Shown: positions 3,050 through 7,166 of the stretch, one piece after another
Layout of the letters: the number at the start of each line of letters is the position of its first letter
How positions within the stretch are numbered: the first letter of the stretch is position 1
Assembly (NCBI GenBank): GCA_016841005.1
Contig: JAEORG010000453.1
Coordinates: forward strand, 1 to 7,233
Direction of reading: 5' to 3'
Length of the DNA: 7,233 nucleotides
Source of the DNA: Candidatus Thorarchaeota archaeon
GTDB lineage: Archaea; Asgardarchaeota; Thorarchaeia; Thorarchaeales; Thorarchaeaceae
Notes under the pieces: generated by a model
Database searches by the model: none
Seen by the model: the letters and a program-made list of their open reading frames with translations, nothing else
What the model was told of the DNA's origin: nothing
Position numbers and translations under genes: made by a program

Positions 3050-4588
3050 TCATGTTAACGAATCACTATTTGAATCAACAACTATTTCTTGGTACAACGG
3101 GAGAGTATCCAAGTAATTCAGGAGGAATTGTGTTTCTGGATTAATGGCTAAATCCCTCACGCGGAGCAGATATTTTTTGGCCTCTTCGGATTTATTCTGA
3201 TACATCAAAATTTGAGCCTTGAGGAAATAAGCAAGACCAAGAACACCAGGGAGTTCCTTGGATATTGCCATCTCCTCAAATTGCTGATTCCATGATTTAA
3301 CATTTCCATTGTGAAGCTCTGCAATACCATCAGCATGAAGTAAGATCTCAGTTTCTGCTAGTCGGAAATGAACTTCATTTATACGATCTTGTCGTTGCAT
3401 CCTTGAAACAATATCATAAGCCTTCTCAAAATAGTTCATCGCATCGAAGAGGTTTCCTTCTTGTCGTTCGATAAACCCATGACACAAATATAAATCAGAG
3501 AGCCATAGCTCCCCACCTGAGTCCATTATCAACTTACTTGCTTCATTCAAATGAGGTAATGCTTTCTCAGTCTTTCCAAGTAATGCATATGCGCTTGCTA
3601 TGTATACATTAGAAAGAGCTTTGCGTCCATGATGATGAGTATAAGACAGCATAGGTTTAGACTCTAAACCTATTTTTCCCCATTCGATAGATTCGTTGAA
3701 TTGATGCATTCTCCTATATATTCGAGAGAGTGCAGCTGGGATAAGCCTTAGAGATAAATCGGGATTTAATTCCTCACGTTTTGAGAGTAATTCCAAATAC
3801 AAATCGCATGCTCGGTTGTATTCACCTCTAGTGCTATGAACGATTGCAGAGATACCTATCCAATCTAATCTGCTATCTAATAATCCCAGTTCTGAAGTAA
3901 TTTGATTTGCATAGTTGATTGTTCCTAGTGCTCTTGGATCACCTATTCTTGCTTGCAGATAGGCTTCACCATATTTTGTTAATCCATGAAAATCGATTTC
4001 ATCATGTTTTAGAGTTTCTTCATGTATCAGATTGTAGAAATCTTGTGCTTCAGACCACCTTGCTTCACGAGTGAATTGGTCAGCATGAATGTTGTAAATC
4101 CTAGGTTGAAGGAATTTTATACTGCTGTTATTATCTATTAGCTCTTGCATCTCCTGCACGATTCTTTCTTCATCCATACTTGATGGAGAGATTCCTCTGA
4201 TACATATCCAACTCAAGTCATAGAGGTCGAATTTAATCAGTAGATTATCAGTACAAAAAAGGGCATGAGTCACCTCTTCCAATATGCGATTCCAGTCCCA
4301 GTTGTCGTTCTTTGTCATCTCCCACATCGAATATTTCGGACGTAGAATTGGAGAATTTGGATATTTTTCTATTATATCTTCGAATTTCTTTATGTAATCC
4401 GTACGGTCAGCATGCAAATATGCAATGTAAACTAATTCGTCTTGAGCATCAATCGATAACACATAATCTACTAACTTCTGTACGAACTCTGCATAGTTAT
4501 TTGATTCTTGTATGAATGATTCTATCTCCTTATGATACTTGGAGTCAACGAATGGAAGTGTATTTGTTATTGTACCGATTGGTTTCAT
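3050..4588 (-). CDS. TPR-repeat protein, paralogue 3
   Basis: A 512-residue protein starting MKPIGTITNTLPFVDSKY and ending in a short polar tail (DSNSDSLT). It aligns without gaps to the partial gene at 1-1116 over 372 residues at about 60% identity. TPR-like helical hairpins are seen at about residues 253-271 (TRGEYNRACDLYLELLSKR), 294-311, 337-353, 376-395 (QEGNLFDAMNYFEKAYDIVS) and 463-481. The region 100-175 contains a conserved FCTDNL and a DEERIVQ.MQELIDNN segment. There is no signal peptide, membrane helix or catalytic motif. It is likely a cytosolic scaffold or regulatory adaptor, and the function is unknown. No Shine-Dalgarno sequence precedes the ATG. The stop is TGA, and the frame beyond it shows no family-like sequence, so UGA acts as an ordinary stop here. 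The gene lies about 80 nt downstream of the vhuU 3' UTR structure. Confidence 0.92.
   Translation of the reverse strand: MKPIGTITNTLPFVDSKYHKEIESFIQESNNYAEFVQKLVDYVLSIDAQDELVYIAYLHADRTDYIKKFEDIIEKYPNSPILRPKYSMWEMTKNDNWDWNRILEEVTHALFCTDNLLIKFDLYDLSWICIRGISPSSMDEERIVQEMQELIDNNSSIKFLQPRIYNIHADQFTREARWSEAQDFYNLIHEETLKHDEIDFHGLTKYGEAYLQARIGDPRALGTINYANQITSELGLLDSRLDWIGISAIVHSTRGEYNRACDLYLELLSKREELNPDLSLRLIPAALSRIYRRMHQFNESIEWGKIGLESKPMLSYTHHHGRKALSNVYIASAYALLGKTEKALPHLNEASKLIMDSGGELWLSDLYLCHGFIERQEGNLFDAMNYFEKAYDIVSRMQRQDRINEVHFRLAETEILLHADGIAELHNGNVKSWNQQFEEMAISKELPGVLGLAYFLKAQILMYQNKSEEAKKYLLRVRDLAINPETQFLLNYLDTLPLYQEIVVDSNSDSLT
3807..3833. repeat. 27-nt exact direct repeat within TPR paralogue 3 (matches 335-361)
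   Basis: Second copy of the repeat at 335-361, inside the gene at 3050-4588. It reflects gene duplication, with possible local gene conversion or strong constraint on this TPR helix. Confidence 0.85.
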
Positions 4589-4612
4589 ATTGGCGTAACA
4601 TATGATGTATTC

Positions 4613-4630
4613 AGTGAAAACTGCTTCGAT
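4613..4630 (-). promoter_or_regulatory. Conserved leader element, copy B
   Basis: Identical to the 18-mer at 1141-1158 and at the same 24-nt distance from its start codon (ATG at 4588). It lies between the TATA-like box and the ATG, so it is probably transcribed. No equivalent is seen before the TPR gene at 1251-2744. Confidence 0.5.
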
Positions 4631-4670
4631 GCAGTTGGCTTGAATTAATGTTCAGATTGAAGTGAAATTG

Positions 4671-4680
4671 AATATAAAAA
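4671..4680 (-). promoter_or_regulatory. TATA-like element / T-run between the vhuU 3' UTR and TPR paralogue 3
   Basis: Minus-strand TTTTTATATT resembles the archaeal TATA consensus and lies about 83 nt upstream of the TPR start, as in the neighbouring paralogue. It also directly follows the structured 3' UTR of vhuU, so the same T-run could contribute to archaeal (oligo-T dependent) termination of the hydrogenase operon. The two roles cannot be separated from sequence alone. Confidence 0.4.
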
Positions 4681-4684
4681 GTAA

Positions 4685-4757
4685 GGATGAAGGAGAGTGC
4701 GGGCGGACCCTTGCGGGGCCGTCCAGCCCAACCCAAGTTTTGGTTGAGCGTTCATCC
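4685..4757 (-). promoter_or_regulatory. Candidate SECIS element in the vhuU 3' UTR
   Basis: Archaeal Sec genes normally carry their SECIS in the 3' UTR, and a strongly structured, GC-rich segment follows the vhuU stop. Three pairings are visible in the RNA. (1) GGAUGAA (4757-4751) pairs with UUCAUCC (4691-4685), a perfect 7-bp closing stem that contains the UGA stop. (2) GCUCAACC (4749-4742) pairs with GGUUGGGC (4733-4726), 8 bp with one G-U. (3) CGG-C-CCC, a GCAA tetraloop, then GGG-U-CCG (4722-4703), two 3-bp GC helices around a C/U mismatch, with UGGA on its 5' side. An alternative outer helix, GGGC/GCCC (4729-4726 with 4704-4701), competes with hairpin 2. I do not see a textbook GAA/A internal loop, so location and stability are the main evidence. 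A plain terminator hairpin is the alternative. Confidence 0.6.
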
Positions 4758-4904
4758 ACCGCCCAGCACTAGTTCCTTCCTGACAATCTCGCGCCCCTCT
4801 TCGTCAACGACGACCATATGAGCGGCGCATGATAGTCAGCAGTCATAACAGCGTACGACCATCTCAATGATGTTCAGTACGCCTTCCGGTATTTCTTCAG
4901 TCAT
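4752..4904 (-). CDS. vhuU: VhuU-type selenocysteine peptide carrying the C-terminal Ni-binding motif of the hydrogenase large subunit
   Basis: Fifty codons from an ATG at 4904 to a TGA at 4754-4752, with an in-frame TGA at codon 23. With that codon as Sec (U), residues 18-29 read RCYDCULSCAAH, matching the end of [NiFe]-hydrogenase large subunits (typically RAYDPCLSCAxH) with U in place of the first Ni-ligand Cys. MvhA, immediately upstream, lacks this motif, so the two chains complement each other. In related hydrogenases a maturation endopeptidase cleaves after the motif His. Here that would leave a 29-residue peptide and remove a 21-residue tail that begins MVVVDEEGRE. A separate VhuU is known from Methanococcus and has been reported in Lokiarchaeota. 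The start is 13 nt after mvhA, and a GGAG overlapping the mvhA stop lies 10 nt before the ATG. Cys replaces Ala at position 19 and Pro at 22, which is unusual. Ordinary ORF calling would miss the gene or truncate it to 22 codons. Confidence 0.9.
4836..4838 (-). other. vhuU: In-frame UGA read as selenocysteine (VhuU Sec23)
   Basis: The codon is TGA in the frame that encodes the hydrogenase motif on both sides (RCYDC before, LSCAAH after). It falls at the position of the first cysteine of DPCxxCxxH, a Ni ligand known to be Sec in [NiFeSe] enzymes. UGA also serves as a stop in this window (vhuU itself and the TPR gene at 3050-4588), so decoding here must depend on context. Confidence 0.88.
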
Positions 4905-4914
4905 CTTGATACTG

Positions 4915-4918
4915 CTCC
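4915..4918 (-). promoter_or_regulatory. Ribosome binding site of vhuU
   Basis: Minus-strand GGAG, whose first G is the last base of the mvhA TAG stop, lies 10 nt before the ATG at 4904. It supports this start for a gene that is too short and too interrupted to be found by length, and suggests translational coupling to mvhA. Confidence 0.65.
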
Positions 4919-6234
4919 TATGTCTTGACCAGAGGTTCTGGTAGTTCCAGACTCTCGAGCGCATTGTCCTCGAAGATCTGTTTCGCTGCGGTCATGAGTG
5001 ATTTCTCAATTCCAGCAATATTGTGGTTTGTCGCAATCATGAGGTTAGCATGTACGAGGATTCCATCATCATCACTTGTGTAGTGATGCATGCAAGTTCC
5101 ACGAGGCGCCTCAACAACACCGACTCCCTCACCAGCCTTTGGCTCAACATCACTCAGTTTGATATCTGTACTAACAATCTGTGGGTCTTCAAGTAGTGTC
5201 TTGACCCACTCAGCTGCCTGAACCAGCTCGACTATCCTTGCATAATGATAGGCGAACGTGTGGTGTGAAGGTCTACCCACGAGCTCGCGCATTTCCTTTA
5301 GAGCTGCATCAGCTAGCGGAGTCGCCATCTTATCTGCAACGTTACATCTTGCAAGTGTATTCGCACGCCAGATTCCATCAGGGTATCCAGCAGGCTTGTA
5401 GTACATATGTGTGGCGTAGGAATGCTTTGGTATGTGTTCACCGACATATTTGATGTAATTTTTCGGCTCAAAGTCAGCGACAATCTTTCCATCAGGATCC
5501 ATCACGCGCAGATTACCATCGTAGATATCAAGGACACCATTGTTCGTCAACCCAAAGTAGTACGTAGGTGTTACTGCAACCTTGGTAATGACATCAATAT
5601 AGGAATTCACGACTATCTTCGCGAGATCAACTGTTTTGTTGATATTCTCAAGCATCTCGGGAACTTTCTTCAGCCATGCATCACGTGCTTCCTCACTCAA
5701 TGGATTTAACATTCCTCCAGCAATTGCTGTTACTGGATGAACAGATTTGGCACCTACTTCTCTACAAAGCTCCTGACCAAACTCCATTAGTTTGATTGCT
5801 TGCACAGCAACATCTGGAAGATGTTTCAACACTGCTGCAACGTTTCTGACTGCAGGATCTGCCATGGGTCCAAATACGAAGTCTGGTGCAGCTAGGGCAT
5901 AGAAGTGAATTGCATGGCTTGAGAGCTGTTTAGCCTCAATGAGCAACCGTCTTAGCTTGATTGCTGCAGGTGGAGGTGTTACGTCCCACGCAGCCTCAAC
6001 CGCCTTAGTGGATGCTAGATGATGAGGTTCTGGGCAGATCCCACAAATTCTCGGTGCAATCCGGGGAGCTTCCTCCATCGGACGACCTACAAGGAACTGT
6101 TCAAAGAATCTAGTTGATCCAACATTGAATTGAATGTCCTTTACTTTATTCCCAGGACCTAATTTTATTGTGAGCGCTCCATGTCCTTCGAGCCGGGTTA
6201 TTGGATCGATTCGAATTGTTTTCTCGTCAGCCAT
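4918..6234 (-). CDS. mvhA: F420-non-reducing [NiFe]-hydrogenase large (catalytic) subunit, C-terminally split
   Basis: A 438-residue group 3 [NiFe]-hydrogenase large subunit (MvhA/VhuA type), which oxidises H2 at a NiFe(CN)2CO site in the cytoplasm. Visible motifs: RLEGHG at 14-19 (Glu16, conserved near the active site); RICGICPEPHH at 62-72 with Ni/Fe ligands Cys64 and Cys67 and His71; HPVTAIAGG around 166-174; and the family segment EAPRGT at 375-380. The usual C-terminal DPCxxCxxH is absent: the chain ends FEDNALESLELPEPLVKT. The missing segment is encoded next door in vhuU, and 438 plus 50 residues roughly equals an unsplit family member. The protein alone could not ligate Ni fully, so it should depend on VhuU. 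The ATG overlaps the mvhG stop (TAATG) and follows AGGAGGT at 8 nt. The stop is TAG. Electrons should pass to MvhG and, by analogy with methanogens, on to MvhD and heterodisulfide reductase-like HdrABC, which are not in the window. Confidence 0.94.
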   Translation of the reverse strand: MADEKTIRIDPITRLEGHGALTIKLGPGNKVKDIQFNVGSTRFFEQFLVGRPMEEAPRIAPRICGICPEPHHLASTKAVEAAWDVTPPPAAIKLRRLLIEAKQLSSHAIHFYALAAPDFVFGPMADPAVRNVAAVLKHLPDVAVQAIKLMEFGQELCREVGAKSVHPVTAIAGGMLNPLSEEARDAWLKKVPEMLENINKTVDLAKIVVNSYIDVITKVAVTPTYYFGLTNNGVLDIYDGNLRVMDPDGKIVADFEPKNYIKYVGEHIPKHSYATHMYYKPAGYPDGIWRANTLARCNVADKMATPLADAALKEMRELVGRPSHHTFAYHYARIVELVQAAEWVKTLLEDPQIVSTDIKLSDVEPKAGEGVGVVEAPRGTCMHHYTSDDDGILVHANLMIATNHNIAGIEKSLMTAAKQIFEDNALESLELPEPLVKT

Positions 6235-7166
6235 TACAGTTTACCTCCTTTGAGGTCCTCTCGTTTGATACGCATTCTGTTGAGATGGCTAGTTGCATAG
6301 TCAAATCTGTAGAAGGTCCCAAGAGGGTCTTTCACCTGTTCCACCAGTTCTGCTGGTTCAATTGGGGCATAGGTTCCAAGCATGGAGATTGATGCCGCTC
6401 CATGGTCCGACATTATCGGTGGAGGGGGACCAAAACACCCACGGCAGGTTGCTCCTTGATTGACACATTGACCCTCACAGATTCCCCATGTTGAAGAGCC
6501 AACACAGATGTAACCCTGTTCTAACAAGCATCTATCTGGGTCAGCATGACCTGTAAAGGGTCTTAGAACCTTATCAATCGGGGTCTCCTTCTTCTCTCGA
6601 TTACAGTAGTGACAGACAGTGTGTGGCGGAAGGTCTAGTGGAGACCCTGTAAGGAGATGCATCACTGCTGCAGTAATCAACTTAGGTGTTGGTGGGCAAC
6701 CAGGAAGATAAACATCAAACTCAACGTAATCAGAGTTTGGTCGTACAACAGGTTCAAGTCCGGGTACATTCTCAGTTGGTAGTTTTCCACCACTAAAGGT
6801 CTTGTTCTCTACGAACTTCGTATTAATACACTCCTCGATATCATAGAGATTAGCAAGACCAGCTACACTACCAAAACAAGAACATGAGCCTAATGAAACA
6901 AGGATCTGACACTTCTGGCGCATGACTTTCAGGAGATGGACATCCTCTTCGGTTCTTGCCATACCCTCATAGAATCCTGCAACGATGGACTTGTCTTCAT
7001 AACTTTCTAAGTGATGAAGCTTGAAATCCGCAACTGCTTGCCAATATTTGATATCGATTAACGGTAGCACGTCTGCAAGAGCAAGATGAATGTCTACAAG
7101 ACTCTGGTAACATCCCCAGCATGATGAACCTTGCCCGAAGGCGACAGGTATAGGATCAACCATCAT
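6234..7166 (-). CDS. mvhG: F420-non-reducing [NiFe]-hydrogenase small subunit (three Fe-S clusters)
   Basis: A 310-residue MvhG/VhuG-type small subunit of usual length, relaying electrons from the NiFe site. Cysteine pattern: SSCWGC (Cys16, Cys19), GSCSCFG (Cys95, Cys97) and PGCPPTP (Cys157) include the ligands of the proximal [4Fe-4S] cluster. CHYC (Cys185, Cys188), Cys213, Cys221, Cys230, Cys234, Cys241 and Cys244 (CRGCFGPP) can supply two further [4Fe-4S] clusters, as in group 3 enzymes. There is no twin-arginine signal, so the enzyme is cytoplasmic. The 3' end overlaps the mvhA start by one base (TAATG). Two adjacent ATGs exist, at 7166 and 7163. The first overlaps the upstream stop, mirroring the mvhG-mvhA junction, but it leaves only 3 nt after AGGAGGT. 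The second leaves 6 nt and would give MVDPIPVAFGQG, so it may be the true start. Confidence 0.94.
   Translation of the reverse strand: MMVDPIPVAFGQGSSCWGCYQSLVDIHLALADVLPLIDIKYWQAVADFKLHHLESYEDKSIVAGFYEGMARTEEDVHLLKVMRQKCQILVSLGSCSCFGSVAGLANLYDIEECINTKFVENKTFSGGKLPTENVPGLEPVVRPNSDYVEFDVYLPGCPPTPKLITAAVMHLLTGSPLDLPPHTVCHYCNREKKETPIDKVLRPFTGHADPDRCLLEQGYICVGSSTWGICEGQCVNQGATCRGCFGPPPPIMSDHGAASISMLGTYAPIEPAELVEQVKDPLGTFYRFDYATSHLNRMRIKREDLKGGKL
6243..6249 (-). promoter_or_regulatory. Ribosome binding site of mvhA
   Basis: Minus-strand AGGAGGT, 8 nt before the mvhA ATG and inside the last codons of mvhG. It fixes the start at 6234. Confidence 0.8.

Follow-up and report, generated by a model that had tools for sequence, protein, structure and literature searches.

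Contig JAEORG010000453.1 of a Thorarchaeota archaeon raises a question about a single codon. Between a hydrogenase large-subunit gene and a row of TPR genes lies a 50-codon frame interrupted by one TGA. Is this TGA a true stop, or is it read as selenocysteine (Sec), and what in the mRNA would mark it for such reading? To answer this, we analyzed the whole 7,233-nucleotide stretch (the window) together with related loci and genomes. We conclude with high confidence that the frame is a working selenoprotein gene, vhuU, in a vhuG-vhuA-vhuU operon, and that its UGA at 4838-4836 is read as Sec by way of a SECIS element.

The vhuG-vhuA-vhuU genes

The genes and motifs of the window are as follows.

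6234..7166, minus strand: vhuG, small (FeS) subunit (NCBIfam VhuG, E 4.5e-62, below the cut-off)
4918..6234, minus strand: vhuA, large subunit lacking the C-terminal L2 motif (NCBIfam VhuA, E 4.2e-149, below the equivalog cut-off)
6022..6051, minus strand: L1 motif R-I-C-G-I-C-P-E-P-H of VhuA, from the sequence
4915..4919, minus strand: AGGAG, a possible ribosome-binding site predicted from the sequence, overlapping the vhuA stop codon
4752..4904, minus strand: vhuU, 50-codon selenoprotein gene, start ATG 4904-4902, real stop TGA 4754-4752
4836..4838, minus strand: UGA predicted to be read as selenocysteine, residue 23 of VhuU (TGA in 66 of 66 vhuU frames, window included)
4818..4844, minus strand: metal-binding motif D-C-U-L-S-C-A-A-H of VhuU (sequence and alignment to solved hydrogenases)
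4755..4817, minus strand: C-terminal extension of VhuU past the motif His, its last codons doubling as the helix I strand of the SECIS
1-1179, 1251-2744 and 3050-4588, minus strand: three TPR-protein-like genes in a row downstream of vhuU

A sequence-only reading of this DNA had placed the frame at 4904-4752, broken only by the TGA at 4838-4836. These coordinates proved exact to the base, and that TGA is the sole internal stop. The frame starts 13 bases past the end of vhuA, on the same strand, and with TGA as U its product is MTEEIPEGVLNIIEMVVRCYDCULSCAAHMVVVDEEGREIVRKELVLGGG. We take D-C-U-L-S-C-A-A-H to be the L2 motif of hydrogenases. Against the NCBIfam VhuU model (NF041786), with U scored as C, the 50 residues gave E 1.7e-16 and 59.7 bits; the curated cut-off is 70, so the protein is filed as a homologue only and not under the equivalog. 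The C-termini of full-length FrhA and HydA were weaker family matches to the frame. In alignments with solved Mvh/Frh large subunits, U falls on the first Cys of D-P-C-x-x-C-x-x-H, and the separate 27-residue chain 9sfi_M has a non-standard residue, X, opposite U. The earlier placement of U on a Ni-ligand Cys in DCULSCAAH is thus upheld by the family model (below its cut-off), by the alignment to solved structures and by the conservation of the TGA. These comparisons support the view that vhuU is the split-off C-terminus of the VhuA large subunit, with U on a metal-ligand cysteine. In [NiFe] hydrogenases the C-terminal tail is clipped by a maturation protease; by analogy, the VhuU tail past His29 is presumably removed in the same way.

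The gene upstream of vhuU had been called mvhA. It does encode a hydrogenase large subunit, but vhuA is the name that fits better. The protein ends before the C-terminal motif and vhuU supplies that motif, making a two-piece large subunit of the VhuA/VhuU type. Its R-I-C-G-I-C-P-E-P-H is presumably the L1 motif of [NiFe] hydrogenases, bearing the other two metal-ligand cysteines. The closest solved relative of VhuA is 9sfi_g (418 residues). VhuU, VhuA and VhuG all score under their NCBIfam curated cut-offs, as diverged relatives would. As in a Vhu-type [NiFeSe] hydrogenase, vhuG and vhuA lie beside vhuU, and vhuA carries the RxCGxC L1 motif. As in Asgard VhuU, the vhuU frame is a short ORF of its own immediately behind vhuA, and its product is homologous to the C-terminus of the large subunit; the in-frame UGA takes the place of the first Cys in the C-terminal CxxC motif.

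Upstream of vhuG, what had been taken for a partial mvhD is actually the end of a small ORF (WGELEVTGHEHHEVMYALKEV), which also precedes vhuG in L001, L003, L004 and L012. Sec in a vhuD beside vhuG was considered and rejected. A frame that we take to be vhuD-like precedes vhuG in L004 and L012 and has no internal UGA, and the window fragment is a different small ORF. The TPR genes downstream of vhuU were confirmed by domain matches, with TPR detected in both complete genes of the row (497 and 512 aa). Between the outer two TPR-like genes, some parts share 73-76% DNA identity and are always 3472 bases apart.

vhuU and Sec machinery in related genomes

Scanning genome contigs with VhuA yielded 71 related loci. 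Their titles read Thorarchaeota, Lokiarchaeota, Lokiarchaeia, Helarchaeota or simply archaeon, and among complete VhuA proteins the nearest, from L001, is 85% identical. Loci were grouped by similarity. The Thor group comprises L001-L028, L066, L068, L071 and the window, and takes in some loci with other titles ('Lokiarchaeota' for L011 and L014, 'archaeon' for L002 and L022); the Loki group comprises the rest, including the Helarchaeota locus L053. A vhuU frame was found in 65 of the 71 loci, and with a search pattern that allowed TGA or Cys the codon was TGA in all 65. The frame directly follows vhuA in 61 loci and lies 1.5-1.6 kb downstream in four of the Loki group (L031, L037, L039 and L069). 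In these four, a cysteine-rich frame that we take to resemble HdrC sits right behind vhuA, and the SECIS is still at the vhuU stop codon.

Three loci (L025, L055 and L068) reached a contig edge, and no vhuU frame was counted for them. In three others (L024, L026 and L027), a search of the 71 loci found the vhuU motif absent from the entire locus; the vhuA of these three is 69% identical to that of the window. By accession prefix, L026 and L027 belong to the same MAGs as L023 and L019, both of which have vhuU. Because the same MAG has a second vhuA with vhuU in these two cases, VhuU may be supplied in trans.

Across 47 genomes of the class, 43 strong VhuU matches (E ≤ 3e-14) were spread over 33 genomes, and 14 genomes had none. 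One in-frame TGA, its position not checked singly, was present in 42 of the 43. The remaining match, the sole one with a Cys codon, is the same sequence as P0002 and has Cys for Sec. P0002, a natural Cys version from a Thorarchaeota MAG, was also the one match in a search of 5.8 billion proteins, the reach of which was proteins of roughly 28-87 residues with common short words. That automatic annotation usually loses vhuU, as the sequence-only reading had supposed, agrees with this single, Cys-containing relative. In several relatives, weak matches fell inside open frames of about 430-510 codons; these are probably full-length Cys large subunits, which could supply an intact C-terminus.

We then estimated dN/dS on either side of the TGA over all pairs, excluding L054, which has a frame break. 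For the 21 codons before the TGA, values were 0.073 (27 Thor-group sequences) and 0.123 (38 Loki-group sequences). After the TGA, they were 0.204 (24 Thor-group sequences of equal length) and 0.136 (36 Loki-group sequences), and the +1 and +2 frames of this part gave 1.2 to 4.0. Purifying selection on both sides of the TGA indicates that translation passes it. A UGA-permissive ORF scan of six loci was too noisy for use.

These data bear directly on whether vhuU is a pseudogene, its TGA a true stop left by recent decay. Decay would fit a frame that is broken under table 11, vhuA paralogs without vhuU in their loci (L024, L026 and L027), and relatives that may carry full-length Cys large subunits. 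Yet the TGA is kept in 66 of 66 frames, dN/dS behind it is only 0.20 and 0.14, the window frame contains no other stop, the SECIS is conserved, and the machinery to read it is present in relatives. Conservation largely refutes the pseudogene, and we consider it very improbable.

Sec machinery was surveyed in 15 Thor-group genomes, reached via the loci, and in 14 control genomes. All five of SelB, SepSecS, tRNA-Sec, a PSTK-like kinase and SelD were present in 13 of the 15. SelB exceeded its cut-off in 14 of the 15 (controls, 2/14), SelD in all 15 (controls, 2/14) and SepSecS in 13 (controls, 1/14, Methanocaldococcus jannaschii). tRNA-Sec exceeded the gathering score in 13 of the 15 Thor-group genomes and 5 of the 14 controls. 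PSTK-like matches at E ≤ 3e-32 occurred in 14 of the 15, none above the family cut-off, which one control passed. The best SelD copy itself contains an in-frame TGA in 14 of the 15, and in 12 genomes a single contig has SelB, SepSecS, tRNA-Sec and PSTK clustered within a few kilobases. Two genomes, G008 and G015, had no SepSecS above the cut-off and no tRNA-Sec above the gathering score, yet have vhuU with TGA; G008 also had no SelB above the cut-off and no strong PSTK-like match, with SelD present. These gaps are likely due to genome incompleteness. The sequence-only reading required Sec machinery in this organism and would have fallen with its absence; in these relatives the outcome is the opposite. 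Judged by them, the organism of the window would have Sec machinery as well.

A conserved in-frame TGA is by itself silent on which residue is inserted, and the codon might be read in some other way, such as UGA as Trp under a changed code or by plain readthrough. But TGA ends 83 of the 188 long mechanical ORFs in Thor-group loci and so serves there as a normal stop. Moreover, Cys occupies the position in solved relatives and in the sole non-TGA copy, and the SECIS accompanies UGA copies only. We give a non-Sec reading of this codon hardly any chance.

An RNA element at the vhuU stop codon

The signal for Sec appears to lie at the end of the gene. Neither the SECIS, nor the stop codon inside it, nor the Cys/Sec contrast described below was part of the sequence-only reading. 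The parts of the element in the window are as follows.

4697..4769, minus strand: SECIS element, a three-way junction of helix I, helix II and hairpin III (folding, covariation and covariance model)
4769-4759 with 4706-4697, minus strand: helix I, U4765 unpaired or weak
4752..4755, minus strand: core AUGA, whose UGA is the real stop codon of vhuU; 3' partner GA at 4723-4722
4726..4749, minus strand: helix II, GCUCAACC (4749-4742) with GGUUGGGC (4733-4726), apical loop AAAACUUG
4707..4719, minus strand: hairpin III, GCCC-CGCAA-GGGU, which folds and has the same position in Loki-group vhuU

Helix I is formed by the last vhuU sense codons paired with the 3'-UTR. With its 8-bp helix II and 8-nt loop, the window element falls within the type I eSECIS-like model for Asgard archaea, as given in PMC11227280 (GA_GA core, 7-15 bp upper stem, 8-20 nt apical loop). 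Rfam models run on window positions 4550-4950 returned no SECIS and a single chance snoRNA match (E 7), and folding alone outdid shuffles by a modest margin (z -1.85 and -2.51).

Position and letters of the core are nearly invariant. The core coincides with the stop codon in 63 of the 66 vhuU frames; it reads ATGA in 65 and TTGA in one, and it lies 83 bases from the Sec codon in 61. In L036 and L067 the stop has shifted to a TAG five bases upstream and the core is retained, a sign that the core is maintained independently of its role as a stop. Use of TGA at the end of vhuU also stands apart from stop codon usage nearby. In the Loki group TGA ends 36 of 39 vhuU frames versus 21 of 331 mechanical ORFs of at least 200 codons from the same loci; in the Thor group the figures are 27 of 27 versus 83 of 188.

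We aligned the 3' regions of 27 Thor-group and 35 Loki-group sequences (62 unique, four duplicates dropped) and folded them. Unconstrained pooled folds (RNAalifold) gave three helices in each group, with hairpin III (CCC..GC..GGG) between the strands of helices I and II in both. Paired cells amounted to 88.6% in the Thor group (20 pairs) and 93.8% in the Loki group (21 pairs), versus at most 48.7% and 48.1%, respectively, when the structure was slid by one to three columns. Changes on both sides of a pair, tallied as sequences and not as independent events, were seen in 49 cells in the Thor group versus 15.7 ± 3.8 in shuffles, and in 37 versus 11.8 ± 2.7 in the Loki group. One of the five covariation measures, the number of pair types, was not unusual, being reached by 18 and 54 of 500 shuffles. 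In each group, the energy of helix I with its own partner beat every one of 5000 permutations.

In the Loki group, third positions of the coding tail covary with the 3'-UTR: column 6 is T-A in 28 sequences and A-T in 5, and column 9 is C-G in 19 and T-A in 13. These are mostly synonymous choices (GTT/GTA, GGC/GGT), which are hard to explain without helix I. Covariation in hairpin III is thin, with one pair showing both-sided changes per group, and its support comes mostly from conservation and position. When sequences were folded singly with the core held open, the three-way junction formed in all 35 Loki-group and 17 of 27 Thor-group vhuU ends; two of the rows kept here depart from the frame set only in the longer stretch used. 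The window is not one of these 17: an additional 2-bp helix spans the core in its fold, with helices I, II and III all present.

Covariance models built from one group recognize the other. On the window, a Loki-only model (R1) gave its best match at 4770-4694 with 32.2 bits, the next best scoring 14.3. Among the 27 Thor-group vhuU ends it found 19 at E ≤ 1, ten of them at E ≤ 0.01, and missed eight (L003, L004, L018, L020, L021, L022, L028 and L071); its only extra matches in 379 kb were two further copies of the vhuU end in L013. Conversely, with a Thor-only model every one of the 39 Loki-group vhuU ends passed E ≤ 1, 38 of them also E ≤ 0.015, and the rest of the 559 kb gave no match at E ≤ 1. 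Covariation and homology with other Asgard elements, the marks of an Asgard eSECIS-like element, are both present here.

One genome provides a natural comparison of UGA and Cys. Of the three vhuU copies in G020, L116 and L117 have TGA, L117 being cut at its contig start, and L115 has a Cys codon. The two TGA copies, which were not among the 27 sequences behind the Thor model, have the element at the stop codon, with 70.3 and 75.6 bits. At the Cys copy no SECIS was found; over the surrounding 2.5 kb the highest score was 6.5 bits, from the opposite strand. The similarity of L116 and L117 would also fit strain variants within a single MAG. The motif of L115 (G020:C68) is DCCLSCSAF, with F for the motif His.

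A related layout is seen at selD. All 13 Thor-group selD genes, located by a pattern for that end, finish with Phe-Pro and then TGA. In a pooled fold of 12 of the 13 (the truncated L087 was excluded), the coding tail contributes to helix I, the core bears a stem, and a third hairpin occupies the position that hairpin III has in vhuU; one more helix, of 3 bp, lies beneath the core. In single folds, judged by eye, the three-way layout appeared in 7 of the 12 complete sequences and not in 5. The Loki-trained vhuU model found 0 of 13 elements at the selD loci, indicating that the vhuU and selD elements have a common layout and share too little sequence for the model.

Could the hairpins at the gene end be a mere terminator or mRNA stabilizer, with the true SECIS elsewhere? 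They are GC-rich and followed by a pyrimidine-rich tract, resembling a 3' end, and copies of the 3' half of the element recur behind other genes at the locus. However, the AUGA/GA core matches the Asgard SECIS elements published in PMC11227280, the core is invariant, the element is absent at the Cys copy, and a similar arrangement is found at selD of the Thor group. We therefore see next to no likelihood in a terminator or stabilizer, and retain the SECIS.

The copies just mentioned were examined in the Thor and Loki groups. A same-strand copy of the vhuU 3' end was found 0.1-2.1 kb downstream in 10 of 25 Thor-group loci (two more were too short) and in 0 of 36 Loki-group loci (three too short). 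Control queries, the vhuA 3' end and a reversed query, gave 0 and 0 of 25 in the Thor group and 2 and 2 of 36 in the Loki group. Copies were located as follows.

4675-4699 and 2812-2836 (window): copies of the vhuU 3' end
L013:9866-9997 and L013:10432-10564: copies of the vhuU 3' end
L001:4863-4900: copy of the vhuU 3' end
L010:9239-9290: copy of the vhuU 3' end
L018:10346-10430: copy of the vhuU 3' end

Often only the last 20-50 bases are copied; L013 has the coding tail and the whole SECIS, twice. The copy in the window is weak (25 bases, E 1e-4), with a TPR gene in between. Among ten proteins examined, genes between copies include a DUF6036-type nucleotidyltransferase and a Polbeta/HepT pair, with a DUF5615/PIN-like protein on the other strand; these are toxin-antitoxin-like modules. 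The L012 element was also searched as DNA against six Thor-group genomes, namely that of L017 and five in which copies occur. Each genome gave one or two matches, nine in total, none farther than about 1.6 kb from vhuU; this search missed several known shorter copies. At L018:10346-10349 the copied SECIS core provides, with its UGA, the stop codon of a nucleotidyltransferase gene; a SECIS-like element thus closes a gene that has no internal UGA. The vhuU 3' end looks like an insertion hotspot that duplicates its target, possibly a new one.

Proposed mechanism and known systems

How might one mRNA use UGA in two ways? We propose that the SECIS at the end of the gene would bring Sec-tRNA via SelB to the UGA at 4838-4836. 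VhuU would then pair with VhuA, the Sec and a Cys of VhuU and the two VhuA L1 cysteines together holding the Ni-Fe centre. The terminal UGA lies inside the SECIS core, and the last sense codons form the lower helix. Because the frame runs through one strand of helix I and finishes in the core, a ribosome arriving at the stop would have unfolded the SECIS, and the UGA there would terminate. More tentatively, and with somewhat less than even confidence, we suggest that the SECIS of Asgard vhuU, and probably of selD, is in general a three-way junction and not one bent stem, with a coding helix I, the stop codon in its kink-turn core, and hairpin III, whose loop has a conserved GC, as an additional site for SelB or another factor.

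If so, signal and reading frame would be one object, and the finishing ribosome would erase the signal. This would explain how UGA is Sec once and a stop 28 codons later in the same mRNA. The gene itself is a further example of a published family and shows how easily such genes are lost from annotation. Its RNA architecture is the more useful part and is worth testing. With the coding side and hairpin III defined, concrete constructs can be made for the question of the archaeal SECIS-binding factor, and these would also bear on the proposed archaea-to-eukaryote SECIS transition. Covariation and the natural UGA/Cys contrast within one genome back this architecture.

The VhuU family was, as the sequence-only reading held, already known. 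PMC11227280 (Huang et al. 2024) reports FrhA, MvhA and VhuU selenoproteins with eSECIS-like elements in Thorarchaeia, and VhuU and FrhA selenoproteins with such elements in Lokiarchaeia. Citing Mariotti et al. 2016, it states that the stop UGA in Lokiarchaeia often overlaps the AUGA. The window protein shares family and lineage with those described there, and its element shares the AUGA_GA core, A-rich apical loop and 3'-end position. The model in that paper consists of a core, an upper stem and an apical loop, with an internal loop and a lower stem described around these parts. Our element differs from that description in its third hairpin, in a sense-codon helix I with synonymous covariation, and in the Cys copy that has no element. 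The main text of PMC11227280 never uses the word 'hairpin', and the third hairpin that makes the three-way junction is possibly new.

Like the window protein, VhuU of Methanococcales (NF041786; methanogen vhuU) is a small split-off C-terminal subunit encoded beside vhuA, with Sec at a metal-ligand position; the window VhuU differs in scoring below the curated cut-off of that family. The hydrogenase of PDB 9sfi/9t1s, whose large chain is the best match of the window VhuA, likewise has a separate 27-residue subunit, which aligns to VhuU residues 5-30 with X at U. That small chain ends one residue past the His and has no counterpart of the C-terminal extension of the window VhuU.

The RNA signals of methanogens are of another kind. 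PMC11881835 describes a methanogen SECIS with a GAA_A (KTL) motif, where the window SECIS has AUGA_GA; the euryarchaeal eaSECIS combines a GAA_A bulge with consecutive G-C pairs, again unlike the core seen here. PMC11881835 also reports that a Lokiarchaeal vhuU SECIS placed in a reporter 3'-UTR was nonfunctional in Methanococcus maripaludis. The architecture proposed above could explain this failure, provided that the construct lacked the coding part. The introduction of PMC11227280 gives the eukaryotic SECIS (kink-turn, AUGA_GA) the same core and upper stem, and that paper also reports that no SBP2 gene was found in Asgard archaea. Two things set the vhuU SECIS apart from the eukaryotic element: the overlap of its core with the stop codon, and its third hairpin.
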